Virus record (IMG/VR): IMGVR_UViG_3300026274_000003
Coordinates: 1 to 61,959 of that record
Direction: 5' to 3' (one strand)
Length of the DNA stretch: 61,959 bases
Source of the DNA: a virus
Under the pieces are notes generated by a model. It was not told the origin of the DNA. It made no database searches and was given only the letters and a program-made list of their open reading frames with translations. Positions within the stretch are counted from its first letter, which is position 1. Every line of letters starts with the position of its first letter. Positions 13,865-29,100 of this stretch are shown in pieces. Made by a program: the position numbers and the translations under genes.

Positions 13865-15496
13865 TTAAGATATACGGCACAATAGCCAGTCAATACCATC
13901 AGTTCCGGTTGCATTTACTGACATAGCCATCCATGTTCCTGCTACGCCTGGAATTGCTACAACTTGTCCTCTACTCAAAGAATGCGACCAAATTGTATAA
14001 GAACCAACACCGGCAAGTGTCATTGGTTGATACCAGCCAGATGTGTATATCTGACCCTGGTACGAACTATCAACATACAAATTTAATGCTGGGGATGACC
14101 AAACAACCTGAACAGTATGCCCACCTACTACAGTAGGATAATTATCACTAGGCTGTTTAGATGCGACTGCGGTATTGAGTGACCCGATCTCAGAGTTGAT
14201 TGTACCAATTTCAGAGTTGATAGTGCCAATTTGTGAATTGAGTGAATTAACGTTTGCATCGAGTTCTGCCTCAAATACAAATGTACCTAGATTGGTGGCA
14301 TCTACAGTTGCCGCTAAGCCACTACCGTTCCAACCAATGTAAACTTTGTTTGCTGCTTGGCCAGTTCCACCACCCTGCTGAACTGGGGTATATCCCAATC
14401 TAACCGAATTGACACCGTTAGTTACCGCTGTTGTTACAAACGCGGTAGTTGCCGCTTTAGTTGACGCGTCACCAACTGCGGGTGTTGGCGCTGTTGGTGT
14501 ACCACTAAAGGCTGGGCTTACTAATGGTGCATAAACTGAAGCGGCAGTAGTGCTTAACAAGTACGGCGATAGTGAATTTTGTACGTAGGCAGTATTTGCC
14601 AATTTCAAGCTATTATCACCAGCAGTCGGAGTAGGAGTTACTGTTCTTGACTGATTAATAGTCATCCATTGATTTACACCGTTGGATACAAAGGTGACTT
14701 GCTCACCAGCATAGATGGTGTAAGATGTACCGTATGTTTGTCCGGCAATACCTGCACCTGCAAGAATATCATCACCATTTTGACATACGATAGTTGCAGT
14801 TCCAGCCAATAAAAAGGTGAAGATCAAGAATTCACCAGAAGGGGATCGTGCAGATTGTGGCAATGTTACAGTAATGCCAGTAGTAATGATATTACAGACC
14901 GTACCTAAACTTGTACCAGTCAACGTTGTGCTGGTGTTGATAAAGGTGGAGCCGTATTGATAGCTGGTGTACGGTGACGCATATATCAGTCCCGTACCAA
15001 AGCTGTTTACCGTCAATACTTGACCGGCAGTTCCTATATTGGTTATACCAGTACCACCAGCCGCAATTGGGACTGGTGTTGCATTAACTGGTGGAGTATA
15101 CAGACCAGCAATCGTTACATAGTTATTCAACTGTAGCTTAGTTGCTGAACTGGTGGCTAATGCACTTAATGCTGAATTTGTACTAGCCAATTCACCAACG
15201 GTTGCATAGTTGGAAAGATCTGATTCAAAAGATACAGGACTCCAAGTACCGGCAGACGTGTACACCTGTAGGTAAAGTGTCGTACTGTTAAACCAAAGCT
15301 GACCAATAATAGGCTGAATGGGTGGTGTTGGTCCTGCAAAGTTCTGCAAGAGATTGATATCGTTTTGGGCGACAGCTTGACCATAATTGGTAACGCCACG
15401 TCCAATCAGATTAATGGCCAATTGTGCGGTATTGATCAGATCGTCAGGCACCTCAAAGGTCCCGTTCACCGCCGTGGAAACCACATAATTTGTCAT
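13865..15496 (-). CDS. Tail fibre protein
   Basis: A 543-residue fibre. Residues 1-95 (MTNYVVSTAVNGTFEVPDD, then LLQNFAGP and PIIGQLWFNSTTLYLQV) form a module nearly the same as the start of the 27982 gene. That is probably the baseplate or fibre attachment domain. The middle has tail-fibre repeats (GDNSLKLANTAYVQNSL, GDASTKAATTAFVTTAV) and a seven-residue repeat IGTINSE/IGSLNTA near 430 that is coiled-coil or triple-helix like. The C-terminal ~90 residues are a beta-rich tip that should carry receptor specificity. Ribosome binding site GGAG; late octamer at 15528. Confidence 0.88.
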   Translation of the reverse strand: MTNYVVSTAVNGTFEVPDDLINTAQLAINLIGRGVTNYGQAVAQNDINLLQNFAGPTPPIQPIIGQLWFNSTTLYLQVYTSAGTWSPVSFESDLSNYATVGELASTNSALSALATSSATKLQLNNYVTIAGLYTPPVNATPVPIAAGGTGITNIGTAGQVLTVNSFGTGLIYASPYTSYQYGSTFINTSTTLTGTSLGTVCNIITTGITVTLPQSARSPSGEFLIFTFLLAGTATIVCQNGDDILAGAGIAGQTYGTSYTIYAGEQVTFVSNGVNQWMTINQSRTVTPTPTAGDNSLKLANTAYVQNSLSPYLLSTTAASVYAPLVSPAFSGTPTAPTPAVGDASTKAATTAFVTTAVTNGVNSVRLGYTPVQQGGGTGQAANKVYIGWNGSGLAATVDATNLGTFVFEAELDANVNSLNSQIGTINSEIGTINSEIGSLNTAVASKQPSDNYPTVVGGHTVQVVWSSPALNLYVDSSYQGQIYTSGWYQPMTLAGVGSYTIWSHSLSRGQVVAIPGVAGTWMAMSVNATGTDGIDWLLCRIS

Positions 15497-15519
15497 CTGT
15501 TACTCCGGTGTAGTATAAT
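15490..15519 (+). promoter_or_regulatory. Possible sigma70-like promoter for the island's plus-strand genes
   Basis: TTGTCA (15490-15495), 18-bp spacer, TATAAT (15514-15519), upstream of 15574. A perfect palindrome GTGCTCGAGCAC at 15550-15561 lies between it and the gene and could be an operator. Confidence 0.4.
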
Positions 15520-15527
15520 TTATTCTG

Positions 15528-15535
15528 TATTTATA
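15528..15535 (-). promoter_or_regulatory. T4-type late promoter octamer
   Basis: TATAAATA on the minus strand, about 32 nt upstream of the fibre gene start at 15496. It is the T4 late consensus recognised by gp55-type sigma factors, and this phage encodes one (53472). Confidence 0.7.
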
Positions 15536-15573
15536 TAAGCTTAAATCACGTGCTCGAGCACAGGAAACAAACA

Positions 15574-16662
15574 ATGAAGCATTACTACCGTATTGGTACT
15601 GAACAGTATCAAAATGCCATTGAGGCATGGAGCAGATTCCGTTCCCTTGAAGCATCTAATCAACATCCAGATTTTGAATTGGTCCTCGATAGTGGTAGGC
15701 TGGCAGCATATGACTGGACAATTCCAGCCACCAAGGATTTGCGAACGCTTGAAGAAGAATTTGCCACACGTATTCGCCAACAAAACAAATACGTCCGTCT
15801 GATGTACAGCGGTGGTTCAGACAGCCATTCGGTTGCTGATGCCTTTCTTCGCAGTGGTAATACAATTGATGAATTCGTTATGTATTCATGGGAATCAATG
15901 AATGACGGATGTCTTGATTCCATATTTCAAGTGAATATGAAATTGACTTGGCTAAAAGAAATGCATATTAAATATAATATGCCATTGGCAAAGATGACCG
16001 TAGTTCAAGTTGGTCAACAATTACATAACGAGTTCTTCGAAAAGAATTGGTTCTTGAAACACCCAGGCCATAGTGGTACTGAAAGCTTCAACGTGAATCA
16101 GATGGCAGTTATGAGTAAATATGCTCCACTACCAGTCAATGTTGACAACTACATTAATGTTTGGGGAATGGAAAAACCTCGTCTTTTTACCGACGATAAG
16201 GAAATCTACTTCCAGATGAATGACAAGAATACGATGTATTCTGAAGATCCATCTACAAACAATATCTGGTTCTACATGGCAGCCGAAGCTCCAGAGCTGA
16301 TTCGAGCACAGTGCGAAGGTGCTTTGGCTGTTGCTCGCGGTATTTTCCCCAACTTGACCTTGTCACAAGCCTTACACAAGCTACAAACGGTTCGTGATTT
16401 CTACCATGAATGGTGTACCAGTGTTGGACGTGTTACAACTAAATTCCAAAACTCATTCATCTTCTTGAGTAAGAATGTGGGACAGTCATTGACCAACAAT
16501 AGTCGTTACCATCACGTTGATCACTACGCTAGTACGCGCAACGAAACCTGGAAGCATTACGAAGAATATGTTAATACGGTCAAGGACTTGAGTAACGGCA
16601 CTAACATATTGCATGGCGTTAACACACAACGATTTATATTAGAAAGACTATGTTCACAATAA
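15574..16662 (+). CDS. PP-loop (N-type ATP pyrophosphatase) family protein
   Basis: A 362-residue protein with an SGGSDS PP-loop at residues 79-84, preceded by the strand KYVRLMY and followed by the helix HSVADAFLRSG. This loop binds ATP in PAPS reductase, tRNA-thiolation and asparagine-synthetase-like enzymes, which adenylate their substrate. No zinc-binding CxxC or PAPS-reductase C-terminal cysteine motif is visible, so amide or thio-ester type chemistry cannot be distinguished. The ATG at 15574 has AGGAAA before it. The 13-bp overlap with the 2OG-oxygenase-like gene ties the two enzymes to one pathway. The substrate is unknown. Confidence 0.75.
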   Translation: MKHYYRIGTEQYQNAIEAWSRFRSLEASNQHPDFELVLDSGRLAAYDWTIPATKDLRTLEEEFATRIRQQNKYVRLMYSGGSDSHSVADAFLRSGNTIDEFVMYSWESMNDGCLDSIFQVNMKLTWLKEMHIKYNMPLAKMTVVQVGQQLHNEFFEKNWFLKHPGHSGTESFNVNQMAVMSKYAPLPVNVDNYINVWGMEKPRLFTDDKEIYFQMNDKNTMYSEDPSTNNIWFYMAAEAPELIRAQCEGALAVARGIFPNLTLSQALHKLQTVRDFYHEWCTSVGRVTTKFQNSFIFLSKNVGQSLTNNSRYHHVDHYASTRNETWKHYEEYVNTVKDLSNGTNILHGVNTQRFILERLCSQ

Positions 16663-17330
16663 TTGGTAATATCGCAAACTTACCTTCAGTCGAAGACTTG
16701 AAGGCATACCATATCGGCGAGACAGATAAGAATGATCTGTCAAAGGTGACAGACTTCGTACAACTACGTTACTCATGTCAAAACAAAGCAATTGAAGTTA
16801 TGGCTGAACACACTGGGGTTGACACTTCCAATCTCAAGAACGTCAACGCTCCAGGATTCCAACGTGTTGAGATTCCACAAACGGCAATTGATCGTTTGGC
16901 TGACATCTTGCATGTTCGTAAGCCTATGGCTAGAATGCAAGTTCTTGAACCAGGCAACATGATGACTATGCATTGTGATGATTTGGCCGTTGGCTATATG
17001 CGTCCCATTGAGCAGTCATTGATCGGTAAGGTGGAATTTACCGAAGAAGAGCTTGCAATGTTTGACGCCGACAACTATTATGCTACCCGTTTCCTAATCA
17101 TGATGGAAGATTGGCAATGGGGTCAAGGCATGATGTTCAATGATAAGACATTTACCCATTGGAAATCAGGTGATGTGCTTTATTGGGATTGGACAAATGT
17201 TGCACACTCAACATTCAATTCTGGCTACATTCCTCGTGGATTGCTTCGTCTTACTGGTCTACGCACTGACTCTACTACTGAGATGATCAATCAAGGATTG
17301 AATGGCAATCCGTTCTCAGCGCAATTCTAA
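16650..17330 (+). CDS. 2-oxoglutarate/Fe(II) oxygenase-like protein
   Basis: A 226-residue protein with a double-stranded beta-helix pattern. The metal triad is suggested by His108-x-Asp110 in MMTMHCDDL and His186 in VAHSTFNSG, with Arg196 or Arg200 (PRGLLRLTG) placed to bind 2-oxoglutarate. The strand preceding HxD (MQVLEPGN) and the segment KSGDVLYWDW before the distal His are typical of aspartyl/asparaginyl-hydroxylase-like and phytanoyl-type enzymes. It would hydroxylate a small molecule, sugar or side chain. It overlaps the PP-loop gene upstream, and the epimerase starts 2 bp after it. Confidence 0.7.
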   Translation: MFTIIGNIANLPSVEDLKAYHIGETDKNDLSKVTDFVQLRYSCQNKAIEVMAEHTGVDTSNLKNVNAPGFQRVEIPQTAIDRLADILHVRKPMARMQVLEPGNMMTMHCDDLAVGYMRPIEQSLIGKVEFTEEELAMFDADNYYATRFLIMMEDWQWGQGMMFNDKTFTHWKSGDVLYWDWTNVAHSTFNSGYIPRGLLRLTGLRTDSTTEMINQGLNGNPFSAQF

Positions 17331-17332
17331 TA

Positions 17333-18292
17333 ATGAATATTCTCGTCACTGGTAGTTCTGGATTTATTGGACACAACATCGTAAAGATGCTTGATGGGTA
17401 TAACGTCATTGGATTTGACAATCATGAAGTCTATCCGTCGGTGGATTGGAGAATATTAAAAATGCTAATAAATGAACGATTAGCAATAACTTCCCAATCC
17501 GAAAAGTTTAAGGAACATCGTGCAGATGTCACGCGTGGTTTTCCTCATCTGGGTGGTTTAAATTACGATGTGATCATTCACACCGCAAGCTTTCCCAATC
17601 AACATGAAGTGTCGTTGCATCCGTTCAACGCAACCAATACTATGATATTGGGTTTGATGGGAGCATTGACGCTAGCGCAACATTGTAAAAAGTTTGTGTT
17701 CATCAGTTCAAGCATGGTATATGGCGATTATCCCAATTTCGCAACTGAAAGCCATCCAACTAACCCCAATACGCTTTACGGTGTTTTAAAGGATAGTGGG
17801 GAAAAGATTGTTCGGAACTTTACCACCACATATGGCATTCCACACACGATCATTCGACCAAGTGCAGTCTATGGTGAACGCGACGTATCAAGTCGATTAG
17901 TGGGTAAATTTATCACCACCGCAATTGAAGGTGGAACTCTACATGTTAACGGCCCTGACGAGATACTTGATTTCACTTACGTGGAAGATGTAGCTCAAGG
18001 TATAGTGCAAGCCGCATTCAGTGACAATACCAATAATAAAACCTACAATCTCACACGATCTGATGCCAAATGTCGTACAATACTGGAAGCGGGTGAATTA
18101 GCAATTGCATTGGCTGGCAAAGGAACACTTTCAATTCAAGGTAGAGATACTGCATTCCCAAAACGCGGTAACCTATCAATTGAACAAGCTCGCAATGACT
18201 TTGGCTATAACCCAACAACTAATATAGAAGACGGGTTCCAAAGATACTATGAGTGGCTACATTCCTTTCTCAAACGTCAAGCTTCAGTATGA
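17333..18292 (+). CDS. NAD-dependent nucleotide-sugar epimerase/dehydratase (SDR)
   Basis: A 319-residue extended SDR enzyme. It has GSSGFIG (residues 7-13) for NAD binding, FISSSMVYGDYP with the catalytic Ser, the YxxxK pair in NTLYGVLKDSGEK, and RPSAVYGERDVSSRLV for the nucleotide-sugar pocket. These features match UDP-glucose 4-epimerase and related NDP-sugar enzymes. It overlaps the aminotransferase by 44 bp. The pair matches the usual route from an NDP-sugar to an amino or deoxyamino sugar. Confidence 0.9.
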   Translation: MNILVTGSSGFIGHNIVKMLDGYNVIGFDNHEVYPSVDWRILKMLINERLAITSQSEKFKEHRADVTRGFPHLGGLNYDVIIHTASFPNQHEVSLHPFNATNTMILGLMGALTLAQHCKKFVFISSSMVYGDYPNFATESHPTNPNTLYGVLKDSGEKIVRNFTTTYGIPHTIIRPSAVYGERDVSSRLVGKFITTAIEGGTLHVNGPDEILDFTYVEDVAQGIVQAAFSDNTNNKTYNLTRSDAKCRTILEAGELAIALAGKGTLSIQGRDTAFPKRGNLSIEQARNDFGYNPTTNIEDGFQRYYEWLHSFLKRQASV

Positions 18293-19283
18293 AAAGATGA
18301 AAGATGAAACGCTAGCAGTTATTGATGGCGTTTTATCATCTGGCATCCTCCTTGACGGACCGCAGGTCAATAAACTGATTGACAATCTACAGTCAATGAC
18401 TGGTCGGAAACATGCGATTGTCACTCATAGTGGTACGGTCGCACTTCAAATCATTGCTGAATACTACAAGGTTCGACCTGTGGTATGTCTTCCAGCTATC
18501 AGTTTTCCCGCAACGGCAAATGCATTCGCAGTAGCCAATAACTTCATAAGATTCATTGACGTAGACAAATACGGCAACATGCTGCCAATAGCTAGTTCAT
18601 CTGATCTAGTATGTGCCGTAGGCTTGTATGGAATGCCTGTTGATCGTGACGCATTTAATGCAAAATACTTCGTCGAAGACGCATGCCAAAGCTGGCTCAG
18701 CCCTAAGCCAGGTACTCATACTCAAGTCATCAGTTTTGATCCCACCAAGAATCTAGCAAGCATCGGTAATGGTGGGGCAATTGTAACTAATGATGATGAT
18801 CTAGCGGTATTTGCCAAAGCATACATCAATCATGGTAAGACTGCTGATGGCTTCACTATGGCCGGATCGAATGTCAGAATGTCCGAGGTTGAATGTGCGG
18901 TACTGAATATGAAGTTCCAGTACATTGATCTTTGGCAGATGCGTAGACGAATAATGGCAAAGTTCATGATCAGTTTTCTTGACTGCCCCACATTAGTAGA
19001 TGCCAGCAATATTGAGATTCATGGATTGCAAAAGTTTGTTATCAGAGTTGATAACAGGGATGCGTTTGTTGCTGGTATGAAAGAACAGGGTATCGAATGC
19101 AAGATTCATTATCAGCAAGCACTTCCTGACTTGCCGCATTTGAAGAATGCACCAAAACCCAATTCTAACAATTACAAAACCTTCTTGAAGGAAGTGGTAA
19201 GTTTGCCGTTCTATCCTGAAATGTCAAACCTTCAAGTAGAACACATTGTCGCTTCAGTTAACAAATGCTTGCTGTTGAAGTAA
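18249..19283 (+). CDS. DegT/DnrJ/EryC1/StrS-family sugar aminotransferase
   Basis: A 344-residue PLP enzyme. It shows the N-terminal IPFSNVKLQYEKM, THSGTVAL (PLP phosphate binding), VEDACQSW (Asp at the PLP pyridine) and the Schiff-base lysine in SFDPTKNLASIGNGGAIVT near residue 163. GSNVRMSEVECAV follows. Family members transaminate keto-sugars linked to nucleotides. It overlaps the epimerase by 44 bp in another frame, an unusually long coupling. Its 3' end overlaps the convergent minus-strand gene (19232) by 52 bp. No hairpin terminator was seen here. Confidence 0.92.
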   Translation: MSGYIPFSNVKLQYEKMKDETLAVIDGVLSSGILLDGPQVNKLIDNLQSMTGRKHAIVTHSGTVALQIIAEYYKVRPVVCLPAISFPATANAFAVANNFIRFIDVDKYGNMLPIASSSDLVCAVGLYGMPVDRDAFNAKYFVEDACQSWLSPKPGTHTQVISFDPTKNLASIGNGGAIVTNDDDLAVFAKAYINHGKTADGFTMAGSNVRMSEVECAVLNMKFQYIDLWQMRRRIMAKFMISFLDCPTLVDASNIEIHGLQKFVIRVDNRDAFVAGMKEQGIECKIHYQQALPDLPHLKNAPKPNSNNYKTFLKEVVSLPFYPEMSNLQVEHIVASVNKCLLLK

Positions 19284-20275
19284 GCATTTAGCCAGTCCCA
19301 TTCATAGCTCAACATGAGCTTGCTGTAGTCACCCGACACAGTATCGAAATATTCCATAGCATCAAGTGCTCCCTTCTGACTCCATTCACCAAATGGAGCA
19401 TTGGAAGGACTCAACCAGACAGTCAATCGTTCCTGAGCTTTGGCATCGCCTTGGTTAATGTAAAGCTTGAGCTTCAAGGCTTCACGGAATGCAGTACGCC
19501 AGGTGTGTGTTGGGGAAGTGTTGAATACAGCAGTTCCTGACAACATTGGAATGGACTGATAGCTTTGCGCCAATGTGAAATCGATCTCATCAGCAGGATT
19601 TGCCAATACCAATCGTTTGTTATATGCGATAATGGCTTGATGCCCATAGACAAGTCCATTCACAGGATTCAACACCGTGAACACATAATGTCGATCTTCA
19701 TGTGTGGAACAATTCCACGACCAGTCAAATTCATGATTAATCTTGATTTTAGCAAAGACGGCAAAGAAGCAATGAGTGCCAGCTATTCTAGCTGCTTCCT
19801 TATATGCGGCTGCTCGACCATTTACCCCAGTTACGCGTAGAAGACGATTGGCGCATCCAGCAGTTAGCTGTTCAAGCTCCGCATAGTGCTCTTCCGCTGG
19901 AAGCTCTCCGTTTGATATAAAGACAATATCAAGAGGCTGGTTTACTACCGCGGAAGCAACGACATCAACGTGGTTAACCTCATCAAACATGGAGTCGGTT
20001 ATGGCTACTCGCTTTGGAACGAGCTTGATGCCATATGAACCATTCGTATTCAAGAATGCAAATACCCGATCCATCTTATCCTGATCAGCAACATAGTCAA
20101 AGTTGAATGTATCCAATACGACGGTGTCTTCCCATACCACCCAATAAAAACGAGTGAGAGACTTCTTCTTGGCATCAGCAATGGTTTCCACTCGTTTTGC
20201 CATAGGGAAACGGTCTTTGAGCTTTAAGAATTCTAGATGTTCTGGGTCTTTGGATATGAAGAAAAGATCATACAT
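19232..20275 (-). CDS. Duplicated GT-A-like protein without DxD
   Basis: A 347-residue protein. Two halves resemble each other and the 23089 glycosyltransferase-like protein. The first (YDLFFISKDPEHLEF, RFYWVVWEDTVV, FAFLNTNGSYG) and the second (LDIVFISNGELPAEEHY, LNPVNGLVYG, WRTAFREALKLKL) follow the same order. Where the 23089 protein has the DAD metal motif, the second half has FAKIKI and the first has WED. Metal-dependent transfer is therefore doubtful. It may be a scaffold or an inactive partner. The start at 20275 overlaps the radical SAM stop (ATGTATGA). Confidence 0.65.
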   Translation of the reverse strand: MYDLFFISKDPEHLEFLKLKDRFPMAKRVETIADAKKKSLTRFYWVVWEDTVVLDTFNFDYVADQDKMDRVFAFLNTNGSYGIKLVPKRVAITDSMFDEVNHVDVVASAVVNQPLDIVFISNGELPAEEHYAELEQLTAGCANRLLRVTGVNGRAAAYKEAARIAGTHCFFAVFAKIKINHEFDWSWNCSTHEDRHYVFTVLNPVNGLVYGHQAIIAYNKRLVLANPADEIDFTLAQSYQSIPMLSGTAVFNTSPTHTWRTAFREALKLKLYINQGDAKAQERLTVWLSPSNAPFGEWSQKGALDAMEYFDTVSGDYSKLMLSYEWDWLNAYFNSKHLLTEATMCST

Positions 20276-21167
20276 TTTTGAGATAAACTTCCTTTGTCCA
20301 CTGCGATTGCGCATTTGACTGTTCGGTAACGCCACACGCTTGCTTACATGTTGGATGTGGATCAGTATTCAACATTTCAATTACTTCGTCAATAACGTTA
20401 GTCATAGATCGTACACCGTAATCAACTTTCACGTCTGGCCTTATACCAATGTAACAACACGGAAAGTATTCTCCTAGAGAGTTCACATAGATACTTTTCT
20501 CGTTTAGAGCTTTACATACTACCGTTTCTGATGGAGTATAAACTTTGTCATTGACCTTTTTCAACCATTGTACCGTCTGATGCACTGGTCTAAGTGTTTC
20601 CTTCCTGCGAAAGATCGTGAACCCCATAGAAGTAGCCAATGCTTCTGCTTCCTCTACTTGATGTTGATTATGGTCGAACACTAGCATATCCCAATGAGCT
20701 TCCCCACCAGCAGCAATGAAAGCTTTGGCATTAGCCATAATCTTCGTCCATTGAGAATCACGGCGGTAGATATGATTGGTATCCTCTAGTCCATCTATAG
20801 ACCATATCACGGAACTGTTCTTACCCATCACAGTAGCCAGCTCAGTCCACCATTTTGGTGAGCGCAAGCTTCCGTTGGTATTCATACCCAGATTAATACC
20901 AGGATTGATCTCGCGGAAATAACGATAGATGTCAATGCAATCCTTAGCAGCGGCAGGCTCGCCGAAGTTACCACACATAAACATTCGATCCAAGTTACGG
21001 ATGAACTCTAGAGAGAAGGTATCTTTCGCCCTCTCTAGAGTCATATCACCATGTCGCAAGTAATCGTTAGGAAGATCTCCCTCAGTACGTGGGCATTGTG
21101 GACACCGTAAATTGCATGTTGATGTTGGCTCTAAGTGCAACATCTTTACATCGTCTAATAGTTTCAT
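20268..21167 (-). CDS. Radical SAM enzyme with SPASM-like C-terminus
   Basis: A 299-residue protein. The [4Fe-4S]-SAM motif is Cys18-x3-Cys22-x2-Cys25 in STCNLRCPQCPRTEG. GNFGEPAAA near residue 67 corresponds to the GGEP SAM-binding motif, and NTNGSL and SIDGL follow at the expected spacing. The C-terminal cysteines (VVCKALN, YFPCCYIG, CKQACG) could hold an auxiliary cluster as in SPASM proteins. Substrate unknown; peptide or sugar chemistry are both possible. A short leader ORF with a strong ribosome binding site precedes it (21218-21177). The structured repeat region lies further upstream. Confidence 0.88.
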   Translation of the reverse strand: MKLLDDVKMLHLEPTSTCNLRCPQCPRTEGDLPNDYLRHGDMTLERAKDTFSLEFIRNLDRMFMCGNFGEPAAAKDCIDIYRYFREINPGINLGMNTNGSLRSPKWWTELATVMGKNSSVIWSIDGLEDTNHIYRRDSQWTKIMANAKAFIAAGGEAHWDMLVFDHNQHQVEEAEALATSMGFTIFRRKETLRPVHQTVQWLKKVNDKVYTPSETVVCKALNEKSIYVNSLGEYFPCCYIGIRPDVKVDYGVRSMTNVIDEVIEMLNTDPHPTCKQACGVTEQSNAQSQWTKEVYLKNV

Positions 21168-21176
21168 TGTTATCTC

Positions 21177-21218
21177 TTAATGCGTATTGCTTCTGGGATT
21201 GTGGTAAAGAGCCACCAT
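21177..21218 (-). CDS. Possible 13-residue leader peptide before the radical SAM gene
   Basis: AAGGAGG (21228-21222) stands 3 nt before an ATG that opens a 13-codon frame, MVALYHNPRSNTH. It ends at TAA 10 nt before the radical SAM start. The ribosome binding site is the strongest in the island while that of the enzyme is weak. This suggests translational coupling or a tiny substrate peptide. The short spacing and length leave open that it is chance. Confidence 0.35.
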   Translation of the reverse strand: MVALYHNPRSNTH

Positions 21219-21251
21219 CAGCCTCCTTAATGTTTGCGCATACCCACTATA

Positions 21252-21272
21252 CAACAGGATGGCAACCTGTTG
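21252..21272. other. Short stem-loop in the 509-bp gap
   Basis: CAACAGG / CCTGTTG with a 7-nt loop. On the minus strand it precedes the leader ORF. No T run follows it, so attenuation or RNA structure is more likely than termination. Confidence 0.45.
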
Positions 21273-21311
21273 GGGACGTAGCCATAACGTCTTGGTAGTT
21301 CGATATTTAGT

Positions 21312-21421
21312 CACCAGAATCATGAGTTCTCCCTGGGTTTCACATCGTCCGTGAAGGGTCTCAAGTACCCTTGGAATCGATCATAACCTCATTGAATTCC
21401 TCTAGGAGAATGTTCCTGAGG
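21312..21421. repeat. Structured repeat, copy A
   Basis: The 509-bp stretch 21168-21676 has no convincing gene. Most of it is taken up by two diverged copies of one ~110-bp element, and a third copy is at 46921. The plus-strand core of copy A begins CACCAGAATCATGAGTTCTC, continues CCTGGGTTTCACATCGTCC and has a GGGT...ACCC hairpin. It then reads ATCATAACCTC. The arms AGAA/TTCT and the central hairpin keep their pairing while bases change in copy C. Orientation of any transcript is unknown; all flanking genes are on the minus strand. Confidence 0.65.
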
Positions 21422-21458
21422 ATGGATATGTAGTTAAGGAAGACTGGTATTGGAGAGT

Positions 21459-21560
21459 AGCCACAATCGAGAGTTCTATCTGGGTTTGATGTCATTGGTA
21501 AAGGGTCCTAGAGGTCCATCTTTATGATAGAAACCTCCATGAAATGTCTTAGAGGGGGAT
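21459..21560. repeat. Structured repeat, copy B (most diverged)
   Basis: It aligns with copies A and C over AGTTCTATCTGGGTTT, the central hairpin (here GGTCC/GGTCC around TAGA with one mismatch) and AAACCTCCATGAAATGTC. The TCGTCCGTGA block is changed. It sits between copy A and the terminator at 21630. Confidence 0.55.
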
Positions 21561-21629
21561 GATATGTGGTAAAGGTTCGAGAGGAGGGTAAGCTCACTAG
21601 ATTAGTTATAGAGTGGTTTAAATGATAAA

Positions 21630-21660
21630 GAAAAAGCCACCCGTAGTGGATGGCTTTTAT
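21630..21660 (-). terminator. Rho-independent terminator of the upstream minus-strand genes
   Basis: Read on the minus strand: AAAAGCCA / TGGCTTTT stem with an imperfect CC-GGG top and a TTTTTCTTT tail, 17 bp after the stop of the 21677 gene. Confidence 0.75.
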
Positions 21661-21676
21661 CTTATTTGTACTATGC

Positions 21677-23089
21677 TTATCGTTTGCTTAAGCACATGTT
21701 ATAGAAGTTGGTGAGTTCTGGGAACTGCTCTAGGAATTTAACCTTACGTCTAACCTCGTACTCTTCGTAGAATAGCGCGAAGTTTTTATGATGTTCTTCG
21801 AGCTTGTAATCGGGGTATGGTTCATACATATAAGCCAGTAGCCGTTCCATTTGATCTACTTCTTCCAGATAGAAGCGTCCCCGTTGATCTGGACTAGTTT
21901 TTCGTGTGTACTGTTGCATGAACTTTGATATACGTTCTTTGAACTCGTCTTTAATTTCGGTTGGGAGGACACGAACGTCTTGGAAGTCTGGCCATCGCAA
22001 ATAGTTGATCATCATTGGAACTCTATTCCAAGCATCAGCTTCATTGAATTCAACTCGCATATCCCAGATATCTTTCAAGAACAGGTCAAAGGTGCTTACG
22101 CTAAGGGCATTGAACGTAATCATGAAGTTTAGATTTGCTTTAGTGCTAGCCAAGAATCTACGGCAGTTGCTCATAAACTTATCATAGTTCATGCCTGTAC
22201 GGATGTAATCTGCTTGTTTACCGTGTGCTTCTGCACTTGTGTAAATGTCAATCTTGTTTACCAGGGGTGCAATTTCATTACAGTAGTTGATGAGTTTAGT
22301 AATCAGATCATCAGGAACCATCATATTGGTGTTGATTGAAATATTAAGTTCTTTACGTGGGTGTTCCTTGATGTATTCGAATACACGCCAAGTATGTTTG
22401 CTTAACAGTGGTTCGCCACCGGTAATGCGGAACGTGTCGAGATTCTGGTAAAGGTCTGGCCACCATTGCCAAAAAGCATCTACGTATGGGTTATGTTCCT
22501 TATGTGGAATTGGCATTTTTTGTACTGCTTTGAGTGAATCAAGACTGCCATTCAAATAAGTTGTGGGGTATGGACCATGACGTTCAATTTCTTCCATCCA
22601 CTTACTTGATACTTCGGGTGAGCAGTACATACATTTAAGATTGCAAGTGTTCTCAAATGCAACCTCAAGATATGAGGGCATGATGTTCTCACCGATACCA
22701 GAATCCAAGACTCTCTGTAGATGGGGATATGACCATTCCAAATTTGCACTTTTATATGTGCGATCACTTATATGGTCCCCGGGTAGATCTTCCACATTCC
22801 AGCAATATTGGCATTCTTTTGGGCGTTTACCATTCAGCATTTCTAAACGGCGATCCATTTTGAATTCTGTGTTATGCAATGCTGATGGATTTTTTTTAAT
22901 CTCTGACACTGGAATAATGTGTGTCATTGGATGATGACATGAGTGTGTATGCCCATTCATGAGATAAACGGTTGACTGCAACCACTTAGCCATGCACATG
23001 GTATTTGATTCGAATTTTTGTTCGATGTCGTCCATATTGCTTTTTAGCTTTATGATACGAATTTCGTTTTGTGATTTTTGTTCTGACAT
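21677..23089 (-). CDS. Radical SAM enzyme, twitch-domain type
   Basis: A 470-residue protein. The SAM cluster motif is Cys149-x3-Cys153-x2-Cys156 in NTCNLKCMYCSPEVSSKW, followed by the clear FRITGGEPLLSKHTW motif. N-terminal cysteines (Cys32 in MCMAKWLQSTVYL, Cys51, and Cys93/Cys96 in ECQYCWNVE) form the twitch-type auxiliary cluster region described for a family common in marine phages and bacteria. The reaction is unknown. Its TAATG overlap with the 23089 gene and its place in a run of glycosyltransferases suggest action on a glycan precursor or a carrier peptide. Confidence 0.88.
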   Translation of the reverse strand: MSEQKSQNEIRIIKLKSNMDDIEQKFESNTMCMAKWLQSTVYLMNGHTHSCHHPMTHIIPVSEIKKNPSALHNTEFKMDRRLEMLNGKRPKECQYCWNVEDLPGDHISDRTYKSANLEWSYPHLQRVLDSGIGENIMPSYLEVAFENTCNLKCMYCSPEVSSKWMEEIERHGPYPTTYLNGSLDSLKAVQKMPIPHKEHNPYVDAFWQWWPDLYQNLDTFRITGGEPLLSKHTWRVFEYIKEHPRKELNISINTNMMVPDDLITKLINYCNEIAPLVNKIDIYTSAEAHGKQADYIRTGMNYDKFMSNCRRFLASTKANLNFMITFNALSVSTFDLFLKDIWDMRVEFNEADAWNRVPMMINYLRWPDFQDVRVLPTEIKDEFKERISKFMQQYTRKTSPDQRGRFYLEEVDQMERLLAYMYEPYPDYKLEEHHKNFALFYEEYEVRRKVKFLEQFPELTNFYNMCLSKR

Positions 23090-24012
23090 TAGTCATTCCT
23101 TAGTTTGAAACTTTCGCGAAAGAAGTCGCTAGCTTTGTCATCTAAAATTGGAAACAGAATTTTAGTTTGGCTTTCAATCCAATCGCCACATTCGCGAATA
23201 TTTTGATCCAAAAATGCTTCATCATACGTCCAACCAGTAGCTGTTTTCTTAATATCAAACAGCTCTGGGTTTGCAAAGTTCCATTCACTATCAAACCAGT
23301 CGTAGTCTCTGATTTGCGTGTAATCCCAATGAGGATCGATCATCTTCATAAGACCGAATCGAGTCCCATACATGGCCCATTTGCCGTATTGAACATCCGC
23401 CCCGACACAAGCCCAAATACGAAGGTTGCGTAGATTTACTGCATGCAACTTTGATTTCATCTCAGCAGCTTTGACTCGTTGTCCTTGATCCAAAGAAAGC
23501 TTTACTGCTTCTCGGTAACCAACACGCCATGCTTGATATGGGCTACCGTTGTTCCATACTTCACTGAATGTTTGATGTACTTGTTGATAGTCTTTTTCCC
23601 AACAGAAATCAACCGCTTTTCTAGGATCATCGCTGTTTTCATGTGAATTCATATTCAACACGAATTGCGTTGACCAGAGCTTCAAGCCGCCGTTACCATA
23701 CATCAAGCCATTTATGCCGTTGAGTGCGTTCCAGCTGAAGCTTTTGTTGATGTCTTTTTGTGGATCGAGATTGACCGTTTGGTCGAAGAATGACGGCAGT
23801 ACGATGTTGTCTGCATCAACGGTAATGAACCAATCAGTTTCGCTTTGTTCAGCACACGCACGATGCGCTTGGTCAAAGCCTTTGACGCCGTGGACACGTT
23901 TGGCCCATGGGCATTTGTCGAGTAGATCAGCCCAATGTTTTTCAGCATTGGGCTCGTCATACGATAGGAAGAAAATATCAAATTCAGTTAGCTGTCTTTT
24001 TTCGCTTGCCAT
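23089..24012 (-). CDS. GT-A-like glycosyltransferase
   Basis: A 307-residue protein with the opening FDIFFLSYDEPNAEKHW and the metal-binding D66-A-D68 in WFITVDADNIVLP. Both are typical of GT-A glycosyltransferases that use a nucleotide sugar and a divalent metal. LNGINGLMYG and YQAWRVGYREAVKLSL are shared with the degenerate 19232 protein. The ATG has AGGAAG upstream. It overlaps both neighbours, so the minus-strand island is one operon. Donor and acceptor are unknown. Confidence 0.75.
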   Translation of the reverse strand: MASEKRQLTEFDIFFLSYDEPNAEKHWADLLDKCPWAKRVHGVKGFDQAHRACAEQSETDWFITVDADNIVLPSFFDQTVNLDPQKDINKSFSWNALNGINGLMYGNGGLKLWSTQFVLNMNSHENSDDPRKAVDFCWEKDYQQVHQTFSEVWNNGSPYQAWRVGYREAVKLSLDQGQRVKAAEMKSKLHAVNLRNLRIWACVGADVQYGKWAMYGTRFGLMKMIDPHWDYTQIRDYDWFDSEWNFANPELFDIKKTATGWTYDEAFLDQNIRECGDWIESQTKILFPILDDKASDFFRESFKLRND

Positions 24013-24916
24013 GTGGCTTCCTAATGAAAGCCAGGTCAGATGACAATGGATAGCTTGCTACGCCAAATGCCTGGTTTAAGTCTAAAGGCAATTGTAACGT
24101 AATTTTCTTATTTGAGCAAAGACTTTCAACATCAATTGGCAAGGCATCATATACCACATTGGGATCTTTAGGCATAGTCAGGAAGATGGGGCAATTAGCA
24201 GACGATGGCCAGTGCAAAACTGGTTTACCAATAATCTCGAGTGTCAATGTGTTTGCTTTGATATCATGTGTGGCTAATATGCCATCAGTAATTACTTGTT
24301 CCTTGTATGTAACCAATTTATTGAATCTTGAAGTAGGGACCACCTTTGATATGGTTTTTGGTACTTTGGAAATTTCTAAACTATTATAAATGAATACACG
24401 TTCACAGTAGATCGAATAGTCATTCAACTTGAATTCATGAGTAAATGATGCATAGCCTGTTTCAAAGAATTTATCAACATTTAATTCAAACACCGCAACA
24501 ATAACCGATGGATCTCGTTTTGGTGTAAGAGTGAATGCCATCGTATCACCTTTAATATGTCCAAACCTGAAGCCCCTAAAGTCGGCTGGTATAGAGAATT
24601 CAATTAATTTGTCGACTAATGCGATCGATACGATTAATCCGGGACCCATAATTGGCGTTTGGTGAATTTCAATAAATTCACCAACATTAATTGGAATCAT
24701 ACCCTTGGCATTTACTACCACCAATTCAAGTTCTTTTCCGTATTGCTTTCCGTAAATCCAGTCGTTGAGTTGCCATTCATGATTCAAGAATCGCAATGCC
24801 GTTTGTTCATCCATTTCAACAACGGAACATCCTGGGTGGTCATCTTCTAAAGGACGACCTGCTACTGAAAAGATCTTACCAGTATCAGCATCGTAATGAG
24901 CATAAAATATTGTCAT
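23984..24916 (-). CDS. Unrecognised beta-rich protein, 310 aa
   Basis: I do not recognise this protein. It is soluble, beta-rich and lacks the cysteine and DxD motifs of its neighbours. The first 100 residues (TIFYAHYDADTGKIFSVAGR, then DDHPGCSVVEMDEQTALRFL) resemble the short sensor-like starts of some phage structural proteins. The C-terminus ends in a basic tail (RKPHGKRKKTAN). It overlaps the GT-A genes on both sides (29 bp and 4 bp), so it is expressed with them. It could be the decorated acceptor protein or a virion component. Confidence 0.6.
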   Translation of the reverse strand: MTIFYAHYDADTGKIFSVAGRPLEDDHPGCSVVEMDEQTALRFLNHEWQLNDWIYGKQYGKELELVVVNAKGMIPINVGEFIEIHQTPIMGPGLIVSIALVDKLIEFSIPADFRGFRFGHIKGDTMAFTLTPKRDPSVIVAVFELNVDKFFETGYASFTHEFKLNDYSIYCERVFIYNSLEISKVPKTISKVVPTSRFNKLVTYKEQVITDGILATHDIKANTLTLEIIGKPVLHWPSSANCPIFLTMPKDPNVVYDALPIDVESLCSNKKITLQLPLDLNQAFGVASYPLSSDLAFIRKPHGKRKKTAN

Positions 24917-25773
24917 TTTAATTTAGTCTCATAGGATACAATCATTTCGTCAGTTAGAAAATCTTTGATGTGATAATGCAAAGGAGCAAGTTGACGATAG
25001 CGTCCAATCTTTAATGCCAAGTCATCGGTAAAATAAACACCAATGTGTTTTGTCCAATCTTCACTAACTGCTTGGCCTTCCCAGTTCTGTAGTTTGGTCT
25101 TCATATGTACAAAGTTTGGAAATTGACCGATCGGTAAGCATTCATCTTCAGCACCAATTAATCTGGTGGCAAGGGCAAACACTACATCAGTGGATAGTGC
25201 ATCAGGTCTTGGTTCTTGTAGAAATTCGAACCGGAAATGTTCCCAGTTATGGAAAATTGTTTCTGCCATATCGAACAGTTCTTTTGCCAAGTCACTATAT
25301 TTGAAATACATAAAGGCCGTATAGACGTTTGGTAGCTTGTTAGCAGTGAATGTCTTTCGGTAGTAGTCGCTAGTCGCTTCTTCCCCACGGTACGTCAAGG
25401 CGGTAGTCGCAAAGCATACATCTTGTTTAGCCAGGGTATCCCACCATAGATCGACGTTCTGCATGAACAACATATCAGTATCCAGCTTGATAGTTTCTTC
25501 GTATGGAGTCATGTGATATGCCTTCCATTCGTTTTCAAGTTTCCAGTCACTAGATTCTGCTGCATCGCCCCATGGTATTTCAATTATCTCATCAAAAGCC
25601 CATTTATATTCTTCTGGTATAACTTGCCCCGGCGTTATACCAATTGACAGATACGGTACGTCAATTTGTGTGGCTTTCAGACTAAGAGCTAATGCGTAGG
25701 CCATTCTGACGTAATCATGGGTGCCATTTTGGGCGAACGTAAAGAATCCGCGCTTGCGTTTAAATTCTCTCAT
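24913..25773 (-). CDS. GT8-like glycosyltransferase 2
   Basis: A 286-residue protein with the GT-A/GT8 arrangement: GFFTFAQNGTHDYVRMAYAL at the N-terminus and the metal motif D98-T-D100 in YEETIKLDTDMLFM. The downstream helix-rich segment contains STDVVFALATRLIG. It is an evident paralogue of the 25770 protein: both have K/RGF-F-AxN at the start, SPFDETI/TPYEETI before the DxD, and a closing HxK/HAMNK-type segment. It likely transfers a sugar from an NDP donor. It overlaps both neighbours by 4 bp. Confidence 0.75.
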   Translation of the reverse strand: MREFKRKRGFFTFAQNGTHDYVRMAYALALSLKATQIDVPYLSIGITPGQVIPEEYKWAFDEIIEIPWGDAAESSDWKLENEWKAYHMTPYEETIKLDTDMLFMQNVDLWWDTLAKQDVCFATTALTYRGEEATSDYYRKTFTANKLPNVYTAFMYFKYSDLAKELFDMAETIFHNWEHFRFEFLQEPRPDALSTDVVFALATRLIGAEDECLPIGQFPNFVHMKTKLQNWEGQAVSEDWTKHIGVYFTDDLALKIGRYRQLAPLHYHIKDFLTDEMIVSYETKLK

Positions 25774-26669
25774 TCTTTAACTCCATAAATGTCGATAAGC
25801 TTATCAGCGAACCGCAGAATTGAATACTTGTTCATAGCATGAACCGTGACACCCTTTACGTTATTGAGTCGATATAACCAATTCTGTGTTGGGTCGTTCA
25901 CAAAGAATTTTAACTGATTGTATGCCACATCAATTAGTTCATCGCAATCAAAACTAGATAAAATTACTGGTGATGGGAAACTAGAAAATTCGTTGTTTTC
26001 CAAGAAGCCGTTCAACATATGAATAGCAATCGAGAACGCATAGTCATTACGAAATAGCTTACCTGGGAATTCATAAACGTATTGAAAGTAAGCATACTGT
26101 GCTTTGATGTGAGCAACTAGATCGAACAATAGTTTCGCCCGTTCGCCCTTTCGGAAGTAGACTTGGGTTGCCCAATACATTGGAATACCCATACCATCCA
26201 AACGTATTTCATTCACATTTGGTTGTTTGTGTTCCAGTGTTACAACGTCACGATTGATCAAAACGTCTTCATCATTTTCCCACACCAGATCAAACATTGC
26301 ATCCTGAACTAACAAGTCACTATCAATCATGATTGTTTCGTCAAAAGGTGACAGATCATAAGCGGAACTGCGTGTACCATTGTTCCAATTAAGCTTCTTA
26401 GTGGTACTGGCCGAATCTCGAAAATTGCGTTGTGAATTACCGGTATTGACTTTGGTATAGTCGATGATAATGATATGTTGGAATGCATGATCAACCATAG
26501 TGTCGCCCATACTAGTTCTCAACCAATCAATAGTTCCTTTATCTGTGACTAGGCAAACGTCATTGAATTGACAGTTGGCTTTGATCATCAAGCTGCAACA
26601 GATTGCCAATTTGCCGTAATCAACTTCTTCGTTATTATGCGCGAAGATTAAAAATCCCTTAGTACTCAT
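25770..26669 (-). CDS. GT8-like glycosyltransferase 1
   Basis: A 299-residue paralogue of the adjacent 24913 protein. The start KGFLIFAHNNEEVDYGKLA is followed by D116-S-D118 in FDETIMIDSDLLVQD, the metal-binding DxD. GKLFRNDYAFSIAIHMLNG follows, with the second conserved acid. GT8 enzymes retain the anomeric configuration and use UDP-sugars; the exact donor here is unknown. Start and stop overlap the neighbouring genes by 4 bp. Confidence 0.75.
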   Translation of the reverse strand: MSTKGFLIFAHNNEEVDYGKLAICCSLMIKANCQFNDVCLVTDKGTIDWLRTSMGDTMVDHAFQHIIIIDYTKVNTGNSQRNFRDSASTTKKLNWNNGTRSSAYDLSPFDETIMIDSDLLVQDAMFDLVWENDEDVLINRDVVTLEHKQPNVNEIRLDGMGIPMYWATQVYFRKGERAKLLFDLVAHIKAQYAYFQYVYEFPGKLFRNDYAFSIAIHMLNGFLENNEFSSFPSPVILSSFDCDELIDVAYNQLKFFVNDPTQNWLYRLNNVKGVTVHAMNKYSILRFADKLIDIYGVKE

Positions 26670-27013
26670 TGATCAGTAGCCTGCTTTACTGATCTGGCTT
26701 TACGAAGCTTTTCAAACTCAAGATGGTATTCGTTGGTTGCTTCGAAATACTGACCCAAGATGGTGTCGTAGAATTCTTCTAGATTGGCGATCTTAACTGG
26801 ATTTTCACGAGCATCAACTAGCACTACTTCTTCAACGTCGCGACGCAACAATGCATCAACAAACGAGATCAGTTCTTGTGTGATTTTGAACATGCCGCCG
26901 TTATGGGCATATGTTAGCAAGTTTTCTAAGCGTAGCTTCAGATTTTGCTTTTGTTGGAATACGGTAACTTTGTAGTTAGAATATTCAAGTGCTTTTGTTA
27001 ATCGATCATCCAT
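26666..27013 (-). CDS. Conserved T4-like phage hypothetical protein, 115 aa
   Basis: The ATG at 27013 was chosen because GGAG stands 12 nt before it. The sequence YSNYKVTVFQQKQNLKLRLE, then AHNGGMFKITQELISFVDAL and NPVKIANLEEFYDTIL is a pattern I associate with a conserved small protein of cyanophage-type T4-like phages. Its role is unknown. It is the first gene of the minus-strand glycan operon. Its ribosome binding site lies in one arm of the hairpin at 27018-27060, so that structure may limit its translation. Confidence 0.7.
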   Translation of the reverse strand: MDDRLTKALEYSNYKVTVFQQKQNLKLRLENLLTYAHNGGMFKITQELISFVDALLRRDVEEVVLVDARENPVKIANLEEFYDTILGQYFEATNEYHLEFEKLRKARSVKQATDQ

Positions 27014-27017
27014 AAGG

Positions 27018-27060
27018 AAACTCCACTTGTAGTAATTTAACATTCTAACAAGTGGAGTTT
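27018..27060 (-). terminator. Long inverted repeat, terminator covering a ribosome binding site
   Basis: AAACTCCACTTGT / ACAAGTGGAGTTT around a 17-nt loop, 17 bp after the stop of the 27077 gene. The downstream arm on the minus strand includes the GGAG used by the next gene. Confidence 0.65.
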
Positions 27061-27076
27061 ATGGTGTCTAAATTAA

Positions 27077-27982
27077 TTAGAAGTTGGTTGAGATACCAAA
27101 AGCCGGCAATGACATAGCCGTAGGTAATTGATTAGTATCAATCGTTTTGACAAAACCAAATGCAGCAAATGTACCAGCAGCAACTTGGTCATAAAATGCA
27201 TTGGTATGATTGTCCTGCATGAAGATAATAACAGCAAAACCATTGCCAATTTTGGCAATTTCGATTTGAATATAATTGGCCGTGTAATTCGCAGTTGTAT
27301 TTGTTTCCACCAATACACTGGTAACTGAACCCGGCATAGCAGAATATGGAATACTAGTCATTGCAACGGTGCCGCCTGATATACTACACCCCGTGCTAGT
27401 AAACACGACCGTACCCAAGCTAGACAAAAACGAATTCCAAGATGCATCTTGTGTGGTAGAAGCATTTGGATGACCAAAGTTTATAGTAACTCTACCACCA
27501 GTATTAAAGAACGCTGCTGCTGCCGCTTCTGATCCCCACTGTAAATTAACTTGAGCACCGATACCAGATGCTCCACCACCCCAAGCTGCGGCGCGAGTAA
27601 CCGTAGTCGCACCGGTTGGAGCAATCACACTCAAAGCTGATGAGTTAACTGTCAATCTATTGGTTGAACAATAAGTTGCGGTGTTAGCATATGCGGCAAT
27701 GTCAGATGCTTTGATTTTTATCCCAGTAGTAATAACTGGCAGAGTGGCACTCGATGGTGCCGCCCCAGTAATGTGAGCATATGCTCTCGCTATGTCAGTA
27801 TACAATCCATTCCATTGCGACGCCCCAATTATGGTTCCAGTAGTAAGAGTGGGAGCACTTACCAAAGTCTGGTTGTAACCAAAAGTTGAGTTGACGGCAG
27901 GAACTCCCATCACACCAGCAATAGTGCTTCTGATGGTGTTGTAGTCTGATGCTGGTACTTTGGTTCCTACTGCTCCGCTCAT
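27077..27982 (-). CDS. Tail fibre/virion structural protein, 301 aa
   Basis: The N-terminal half has a repeated pattern: ASDYNTIRSTIAGVMG, then FGYNQTLVSAP and GASQWNGLYTDIARAYAHITG. It is repeated loosely as KASDIAAYAN and is known from structural proteins of cyanophage-type T4-like phages. The rest is Ala/Gly/Thr-rich beta sequence ending in GISTNF. TAATG couples its start to the 27982 fibre gene. It probably forms part of the same fibre or caps it. No enzyme motif is seen. Confidence 0.72.
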   Translation of the reverse strand: MSGAVGTKVPASDYNTIRSTIAGVMGVPAVNSTFGYNQTLVSAPTLTTGTIIGASQWNGLYTDIARAYAHITGAAPSSATLPVITTGIKIKASDIAAYANTATYCSTNRLTVNSSALSVIAPTGATTVTRAAAWGGGASGIGAQVNLQWGSEAAAAAFFNTGGRVTINFGHPNASTTQDASWNSFLSSLGTVVFTSTGCSISGGTVAMTSIPYSAMPGSVTSVLVETNTTANYTANYIQIEIAKIGNGFAVIIFMQDNHTNAFYDQVAAGTFAAFGFVKTIDTNQLPTAMSLPAFGISTNF

Positions 27983-29100
27983 TACTTAACTCCTACAGTA
28001 ATTTCCAAGAGACCTACGTCATCAGTAGTTTTGTCAGCAAGTGCTCGACCAATAACTACGAAACTATTTGCAATATCGCTTAGTTCTGCTGCTTGCGCTA
28101 CACCAGCAAAGCTTGATGTAACCAAGCGCTGACCCTTCTTTACTTGACCGATAACCTTGACTGGTACTCGACCGGCTAAAGCCACATATGGATGAGTAGT
28201 ATCATCACCAGCTTCACTATTCATCATATACGCGGGCGCAGTTGAAATAACACCAAACACGTCAGTACTGAATGCCGTATTGCTCTTGGTGATTTCTTTT
28301 GAACCACCCAGAATCACCACATCACCAGCTTCTACCGTACCGTCTACTTCATAACGTTCGGCCATGTCAGCATAATTTGCTGAAGTGGCAGTACCTTGGA
28401 ATGTTACCGCATAAACGTTTGCATAACGCGCAGTTCCGGAACCCAAATTGTATGTCGCATCGGCCGTTGGCAAGTTGGTAATATTGGTGTGCATGATCGT
28501 TGCGTCTGATGGGACGAACGATGTTGGATTAACCCATGTATATGCAGTGCCAGCAGAATTGACAGCCAGAACTTGATTAGCCGTACCAAGAGTGGTAAGT
28601 AGTGCACCGCCACCGTTGCCAACAACTACTTGACCTGCTGGTAATGATGACACACCGGTACCACCGGCCACTATTGGAATTAGTGGTGTTCCAAGTGGTG
28701 GGTTGTAAAGTTGTATTTTGGAAACATAAGTTGCTGCGGTATCAGCGGTTGATGCTGAATTGGCAATCAATGAATTAACTTCAGCTTGTACCGTATTGAA
28801 TGCACTTAGGAGTGCATAATTTGCCAACTCCGATTCTTGGGCGACTTGAGCCCAGCCAGTTCCATTGTAGTAATTAATAGCCAAATTGCCGCTATTATAC
28901 CACAACTGTCCAATCAAAGGAGCTGTTGGTGCTGTCGGCCCAGCAAAATTTTCCAATTGCAAAATAGTATTGCTTGCAATTAGTTGCCCGTAACCAGAAG
29001 TACCTTGACCCACAAGAACCAACGACGTCGCCGTATTGGTTGCTCCTGCTGGGACAGTAAAACTGCCATTTACGGTGGTTGAAACCACGTAATTTGTCAT
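27982..29100 (-). CDS. Tail fibre protein with shared N-terminal module
   Basis: A 372-residue fibre. Residues 1-95 (MTNYVVSTTVNGSFTVPAG, LENFAGPTAP, PLIGQLWYNSGNLAINYY) match the start of the 13865 fibre. The C-terminal ~150 residues (YADMAERYEVDGTVEAGDVV, GVISTAPAYMMNSEAG, VGLLEITVGVK) form a compact domain seen at the ends of many phage fibres and intramolecular-chaperone-type proteins. It is shorter than the other fibre and may be a proximal part. Ribosome binding site CGGAG; late octamer at 29127. Confidence 0.85.
   Translation of the reverse strand: MTNYVVSTTVNGSFTVPAGATNTATSLVLVGQGTSGYGQLIASNTILQLENFAGPTAPTAPLIGQLWYNSGNLAINYYNGTGWAQVAQESELANYALLSAFNTVQAEVNSLIANSASTADTAATYVSKIQLYNPPLGTPLIPIVAGGTGVSSLPAGQVVVGNGGGALLTTLGTANQVLAVNSAGTAYTWVNPTSFVPSDATIMHTNITNLPTADATYNLGSGTARYANVYAVTFQGTATSANYADMAERYEVDGTVEAGDVVILGGSKEITKSNTAFSTDVFGVISTAPAYMMNSEAGDDTTHPYVALAGRVPVKVIGQVKKGQRLVTSSFAGVAQAAELSDIANSFVVIGRALADKTTDDVGLLEITVGVK

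Follow-up and report, generated by a model that had tools for sequence, protein, structure and literature searches.

Pelagimyophages carry cassettes of glycosyltransferase (GT) genes, mostly of family GT8, together with radical S-adenosylmethionine (SAM) genes in the tail-fibre region, and the GTs have been read as modifiers of lipopolysaccharide (LPS) (PMC7029224). A T4-like environmental genome, TARA_ERS488813_N000010, has 12 radical SAM genes that were reported as Fe-S metabolism (PMC5332604), radical SAM, GT and RmlD genes are overrepresented in phages from the Tasman Sea (PMC7150976), and the core genes of another aquatic jumbo-phage lineage include four GTs (PMC12619734). The presence of GTs and radical SAM enzymes in phage tail-fibre regions is already known; previously they were catalogued as auxiliary metabolic genes or surmised to be modifiers of host LPS, with no defined unit. 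Here we describe a cassette of such genes behind a fibre-like gene, FibA, in the virus record IMGVR_UViG_3300026274_000003 of IMG/VR (61,959 bases; the whole stretch analysed is termed the window). The window is from a T4-like phage, as it encodes proteins of the baseplate wedge and a late sigma factor; it is probably a fragment, and its nearest relatives are on contigs of 290 and 523 kb. The best explanation, for which the case stands about evenly balanced, is that FibA-type fibres of uncultured T4-like phages are glycosylated in the cytoplasm by a tail-fibre-coupled cassette, the sugar being tailored strain by strain.

Scans of IMG/VR seeded with the radical SAM gene rs2 and with unk2, a gene for a small conserved protein, gave 68 and 22 loci, respectively, and merging of near-identical loci left 61 groups. 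Where GT genes occur, the genes lie on one strand in a nearly constant order: FibC-FibB-FibA-unk2-gtD-gtC-slot-gtB-radical SAM. About a dozen rs2-seeded loci have a radical SAM gene without the GT core. Of the 47 groups that have unk2, 46 have FibA as the next gene upstream of it, at a distance of 31-93 nucleotides (nt).

In the reverse test, seeded with FibA, 63 non-redundant loci have room for the cassette; gtC/gtD are found in 59 of these and unk2 in 56. In the 45 loci with at least 5 kb, gtB is present in 41, but the flank includes a radical SAM gene in only 26, and in nine non-redundant loci the cassette is ended by an opposite-strand gene, with no radical SAM gene. Thus the core consists of the fibre and GT genes, and radical SAM genes are optional. 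The pairing of FibA with GT genes is near-obligate from three independent seeds (rs2, unk2 and FibA), and it presents one of the features expected of a virion glycosylation system, a phage-encoded GT linked to a structural gene.

An earlier note, made from the letters of the window alone, had proposed a single glycan/peptide biosynthesis island in the tail-fibre region. The twelve open reading frames (ORFs) that it named are all found in the window, the coupling of glycan enzymes to tail-fibre genes is borne out by the FibA pairing, and the kind of target proposed, virion fibres or the host surface, is supported as well. The island itself divides in two. Positions 21677-27043, the greater part of the minus-strand half, form a conserved cassette; rs1, gtA and the four plus-strand genes are variable cargo. 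Most of the minus-strand set recurs in other phages, so that the lack of co-occurrence named by the note as a ground for refutation is not seen there. The idea of one pathway using all of the genes is not upheld, as the conserved unit is the fibre plus GTs. Nearly all of the genes overlap their neighbours, as the note had it, with the exceptions of a non-coding gap of 509 nt between rs1 and rs2 and a gap of 2 nt between the oxygenase and short-chain dehydrogenase/reductase (SDR) genes.

The four genes called GT-A-like in the note, two of them GT8-type, resolve into the pairs gtC/gtD, which are GT8-like, and gtB/gtA. A gtC profile matches glycogenin (6e-9); its alignment shows a conserved [DE]xD and invariant H223/K225. 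gtD is homologous to gtC at 1e-11, with invariant D116/D118 and H277/K281. By their profile match, DxD-type motif and C-terminal His, gtC and gtD are, at the sequence level, GT8-like glycosyltransferases. A member-by-member Pfam scan gave no GT8 match; thus the relation to GT8 is remote. With gtB, sequence searches gave no useful match. Its predicted model (predicted local distance difference test score 92) has a GT-A domain at approximately residues 5-159 that aligns with B4GALNT1 (Z 10.0, root mean square deviation 3.4, 143 residues), and a DxDN motif, D66/D68/N69, is invariant in the alignment of homologues. The top Foldseek matches include the protein-modifying enzymes SunS and PBCV-1 capsid glycosyltransferase. 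It should be noted that MobA/IspD nucleotidyltransferases score 9 against the same model, and thus the fold alone leaves the reaction unfixed.

In two relatives the slot protein has an identity of 35-40% and diverges as fast as FibA, compared with 67-82% for the other core genes. Its model displays tandem Ig/FnIII-like beta domains, with a weak best match of Z 4.5, and it is therefore left without a family assignment. In relatives, where ORFs of at least 30 amino acids (aa) were examined, slot proteins are beta-rich and about 98-444 aa in length. The modified-peptide product suggested in the earlier note, of the type of the ribosomally synthesized and post-translationally modified peptides, finds no support, as the slot encodes a structured beta protein with no evident precursor peptide, and a precursor in the slot was set aside. 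The translation start of unk2 is probably at 27013 and not at 27043, a Shine-Dalgarno sequence being present there. FibA relatives have a Ser/Thr/Asn content of 26-40%, and the window FibA has 30%. A simple hydropathy test, with flanks of up to 10 kb, shows no membrane spans in GT, unk2 or FibA homologues; the span threshold is exceeded by one of 330 rs2-family proteins and by two of 215 cargo ORFs. Thus a Gtr-type serotype conversion system (GtrA/GtrB/GtrC) was rejected, as neither a membrane flippase nor a membrane GT is found.

The gap between FibA and unk2 contains a predicted control element consisting of a promoter and a hairpin. In the window, a sigma70-like promoter (TAGACA-17-TAGAAT, positions 27070-27042) overlaps a hairpin at 27060-27018 (dG -19.4, z -5.2) whose 3′ arm covers the unk2 Shine-Dalgarno sequence, and the predicted start of the promoter transcript lies inside the hairpin. 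FibA-unk2 gap hairpins have a mean z of -3.0 (n=107), compared with -0.7 for 154 control gaps. Of 102 gaps, 46 have a sigma70-like promoter that matches at 10 or more of 12 positions (antisense 6; shuffled 3.4%), and 28 have one that matches at 11 or more (antisense 0; shuffled 0.1%); a late-type motif is present in 26 of the 102 (antisense 1; shuffled 4.7%). The Shine-Dalgarno region is inside the hairpin 3′ arm in 58 of the 102 gaps, and in 28 of the 45 gaps with strong promoters a transcript from the predicted start would lack the greater part of the 5′ arm. The hairpin may also be a terminator for fibre transcripts, and as a switch or as a terminator it would insulate the cassette from read-through. 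Simple late co-transcription of the cassette with the fibres was dropped as an explanation, given the internal promoter and hairpin.

The T4-type late promoter motif TATAAATA occurs four times in the window, each time on the minus strand and upstream of minus-strand genes, with a count that is itself at chance. In relatives, 20 of 57 such sites are 10-60 nt before a start, compared with a mean of 6% for permuted motifs, and only overlapping shifted versions of the motif approach this start-proximal placement. Rfam and tRNA searches of the window gave no match.

From these features we infer a substrate, a donor, a role for the radical SAM enzymes and a timing of expression. gtC, gtD and gtB would add sugars to FibA in the cytoplasm, perhaps to the slot protein too, and the radical SAM, carbamoyltransferase, DegT/SDR and other cargo enzymes would tailor the sugar donor, or the glycan once attached, phage by phage. 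The tailored glycan would change receptor binding or shield the particle. Read-through transcripts from the fibre genes would fold the hairpin and leave unk2 untranslated, and transcripts from the internal promoter would start beyond the 5′ arm and permit its translation, so that enzymes and fibres could be set separately. Tentatively, and at somewhat less than even strength, we propose that as many as nine radical SAM enzymes at one locus, with carbamoyl- and amino-transferring cargo, diversify the fibre glycan, that receptor recognition or shielding thereby evolves by swaps of chemistry as well as of protein sequence, and that the promoter-in-hairpin gates expression.

Glycosylation of FibA is favoured by its near-obligate pairing with GTs, by the fixed order and overlap of the genes, by the GT8/GT-A identity with metal-binding motifs, and by the protein-modifying enzymes among the fold neighbours of gtB. 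The Ser/Thr/Asn richness of FibA, the absence of membrane spans from the core, cargo of a sugar-tailoring kind (NodU-family carbamoyltransferase, DegT, SDR), and a hairpin and internal promoter well above controls are also in its favour. Several points weigh on the other side. FibA lacks the cassette in four FibA-seeded loci, and GT genes are absent from some of the radical SAM arrays. The GT activity of gtB is read from a predicted fold, unk2 and slot are without assigned function, and the modification of FibA, or of any protein, is deduced indirectly. Further, many gaps have a sigma70-like promoter and so point to early expression, a timing that fits modification of the host surface at least equally well.

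This last is the main rival, rather unlikely in our estimate: the enzymes would act on the host surface, most probably on the core or O-chain of LPS, and so block superinfection or alter the receptor, and they would adjoin the fibre since both decide host recognition. GT8 enzymes are common in LPS-core synthesis. LPS modification stays compatible with the early-type promoters, it is the published reading of the GT8/radical SAM genes in the pelagimyophage tail-fibre region (PMC7029224), and gtB homologues in Bdellovibrionota lie in loci with other glycan genes. However, the pairing with one fibre family is far tighter than a shared theme needs, no flippase, polymerase or other membrane gene was seen by hydropathy in the flanks, and the late-type motif found in a quarter of the gaps would be late for superinfection exclusion.

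A hypermodified protein in place of a tailored sugar should also be considered, with the radical SAM enzymes and oxygenase modifying amino-acid side chains of the fibre, itself also the substrate of the GTs. Peptides are frequent substrates of radical SAM enzymes that have auxiliary-cluster domains, maturases of peptides and metalloenzymes are among the best models for rs1, arrays of as many as nine diverse radical SAM genes exceed any obvious need of a sugar, and arrays without GTs exist. The matches of rs1 to these models are, however, far below the cut-offs, the carbamoyltransferase, DegT and SDR of the cargo are sugar enzymes, and neither a leader-like region nor a recognition domain was found, no search aimed at them having been made; this reading is quite unlikely. 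Glycosylation of the phage DNA bases in T4 fashion is highly improbable. T4-like phages do glucosylate their DNA, and a thymidylate synthase gene is nearby (12146-13189), but this matches ordinary thymidylate synthase families, the cassette is fixed behind fibre and not replication genes, and gtC resembles glycogenin.

The two radical SAM enzymes recognized in the earlier note hold, with CxxxCxxC in both (Table 1). rs2 scores 322.7 bits with NF033640, for which the curated cut-off is 170, and its motif is CNLKCMYC at residue 149. Among homologues, CxxxCxxC is kept in 303 of 303 long radical SAM proteins, and the number of radical SAM genes per group varies from 0 to 9 in the fetched flanks. 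On a contig of 518 kb, at least eight radical SAM genes and a carbamoyltransferase-like gene (L005, 1371-16595) have no GT core or fibre genes nearby; thus radical SAM arrays can exist outside the cassette. In other phages a lone rs2 gene is found among unrelated genes, adjoining structural-looking ones (L009, 10019-11368; L021, 9980-11353). The cargo of another locus (L028, 15440-17206) has a B12-binding radical SAM protein (PF02310, PF04055), a different radical SAM class within the same arrays.

In the cargo of the window, the SDR and DegT assignments are sustained by their Pfam matches, and the nucleoside diphosphate (NDP)-amino-sugar enzymes that the note had proposed correspond to the SDR and a WbpE-type DegT. 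The closest proteins to DegT in the PDB are DegT and WbpE-type NDP-sugar aminotransferases (WbpE, 3.7e-31), with the pyridoxal phosphate lysine assigned by eye to the Lys of SFDPTKNL; for the SDR the nearest are dTDP-glucose dehydratase, WbgU and enzymes like them. The putative PP-loop ATPase has an SGGSDS motif and no Pfam, NCBIfam or PDB match, and the putative 2-oxoglutarate (2OG) oxygenase has a Pfam Asp_Arg_Hydrox match that is weak (E = 0.08). In the relative on the 290-kb contig, a second rs2 lies between rs2 and the fibre gene that follows, together with genes for a 308-aa protein and a carbamoyltransferase-like protein, with rs1 and gtA, and with the oxygenase and PP-loop genes. Cargo in the 523-kb relative is different again, with a carbamoyltransferase that Pfam confirms. 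One pathway shared with the rest is not supported for the plus-strand genes: PP-loop and oxygenase genes are found only in the nearest relative, by single-protein pattern scans whose reach is limited to close relatives, and SDR and DegT are seen in neither the 290-kb nor the 523-kb relative. With the PP-loop protein and DegT as seeds, scans of viral sequences yielded nothing of use.

The 509-nt gap (21168-21676) contains a short carbamoyltransferase-like stretch, and a conserved stretch upstream of it is present twice, at approximately 80% identity to the region preceding the carbamoyltransferase gene of two other loci (L070/L001). Thus a carbamoyltransferase cargo gene has apparently been lost in the window. 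In one locus (L048, 13076-18901) a gtA-like domain is part of a 1,942-aa ORF, so that a GT domain is here fused to a protein of very large size.

Table 1. Coordinates of genes and predicted control sequences in the window.
Feature	Position	Strand	Basis or remark
T4-type late promoter motif TATAAATA	29127..29134	-	27 nt before FibB
FibB, tail-fibre-like protein	27982..29100	-	In most relatives, two genes upstream of the cassette
FibA, Ser/Thr/Asn-rich fibre-like protein, proposed substrate	27077..27982	-	Upstream of unk2 in relatives; composition
Control element: promoter and hairpin over unk2 Shine-Dalgarno	27018..27070	-	Sequence and folding
unk2, conserved small protein	26666..27043	-	Shine-Dalgarno at likely start 27013
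gtD, GT8-like glycosyltransferase	25770..26669	-	gtC homology, invariant DxD
gtC, GT8/glycogenin-like glycosyltransferase	24913..25773	-	Profile match, conserved motifs
Slot protein, tandem pair of Ig/FnIII-like beta domains (fold match weak)	23984..24916	-	Predicted model
gtB, GT-A-fold glycosyltransferase	23089..24012	-	Model and invariant DxDN
rs2, twitch-domain radical SAM enzyme	21677..23089	-	NF033640 3e-96; heads optional array in relatives
Terminator-like hairpin with T-run, after rs2	21632..21658	-	Folding
rs1, radical SAM enzyme (cargo)	20268..21167	-	PF04055 7e-9, CxxxCxxC
gtA, gtB homologue, DxD not intact (cargo)	19232..20335	-	Homology to gtB
DegT nucleotide-sugar aminotransferase, WbpE-like (cargo)	18249..19283	+	PF01041 5.7e-46
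SDR nucleotide-sugar epimerase/dehydratase (cargo)	17333..18292	+	PF01370 1.4e-30
Putative 2OG-Fe oxygenase, Asp/Asn-hydroxylase-like (cargo)	16650..17330	+	Weak Pfam match
Putative PP-loop ATPase (cargo)	15550..16662	+	SGGSDS motif only
Sigma70-like promoter TTGTCA-18-TATAAT before plus-strand genes	15490..15519	+	Best match in 15 kb; match count at chance level

No core gene tested has a credible match in 50,697 named phage records. A megablast search with window positions 1-25000 revealed no close relative among named phages, and tblastn searches with unk2, gtB, gtC and FibA (window proteins and/or divergent members) found none there, unk2 giving one weak, chance-level match to a capsid protein. 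For radical SAM, only 23%-identical matches in two Vibrio phages were found. Whole phage cassettes are present on contigs in bacterial and archaeal metagenome-assembled genomes (L093, L095-L100, L107, L109, L118, L120); these are probably phage contigs binned with those genomes. In Bdellovibrionota (L102, L113, L121, L124, L125), gtB homologues are accompanied by homologues of rs1 and of the twitch radical SAM enzymes but not by gtC, gtD or unk2, and one of these loci has nearby genes that by eye resemble UDP-galactopyranose mutase and a GT2 enzyme. The Bdellovibrionota loci hold both gtB and radical SAM homologues and thus support the link between the two in glycan loci; they are possibly a cellular version of the module.

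No description of an ordered fibre-coupled cassette with optional radical SAM arrays and promoter-in-hairpin control was found in the open-access literature, subscription papers and supplements being outside the scope of the search. The fixed fibre-GT-slot-GT order and near-obligate fibre pairing lead to a concrete and testable substrate hypothesis, optional tailoring would account for the varying radical SAM counts, and a recurring T4-type RNA switch is predicted ahead of the cassette. If FibA glycosylation is true, a layer of chemistry would be added to host recognition by large environmental phages.

Bacterial loci for adhesin and flagellin glycosylation have a substrate gene beside dedicated cytoplasmic GTs and sugar-tailoring genes. 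The layout is the same here, with a phage fibre and not a bacterial surface protein as the putative substrate. The host recognition cluster of pelagimyophages, compared by its description, is similar in having GT8-rich GTs and radical SAM genes in a tail-fibre hypervariable region of T4-like phages, but no fixed fibre-GT-slot-GT order, fibre pairing or control element is described for it (PMC7029224). TARA_ERS488813_N000010 itself T4-like, likewise has a large number of radical SAM genes and was reported without a GT cassette or fibre link (PMC5332604). In mycobacteriophage virion glycosylation, as outlined where it is cited (Freeman 2023, in PMC12619734), phage GTs are thought to decorate the particle; the phages and substrates are others, whereas here putative GT8/GT-A genes are paired with a fibre and tailoring enzymes. 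The predicted control element resembles that of the T4 genes e, soc and I-TevI, in which a promoter gives transcripts that lack the 5′ arm of a hairpin hiding the ribosome binding site (PMC3014915, PMC2988022). In contrast to the T4 genes, the putative switch here precedes an enzyme operon behind fibre genes, and the predicted internal promoter is often, as in the window, sigma70-like and not late.

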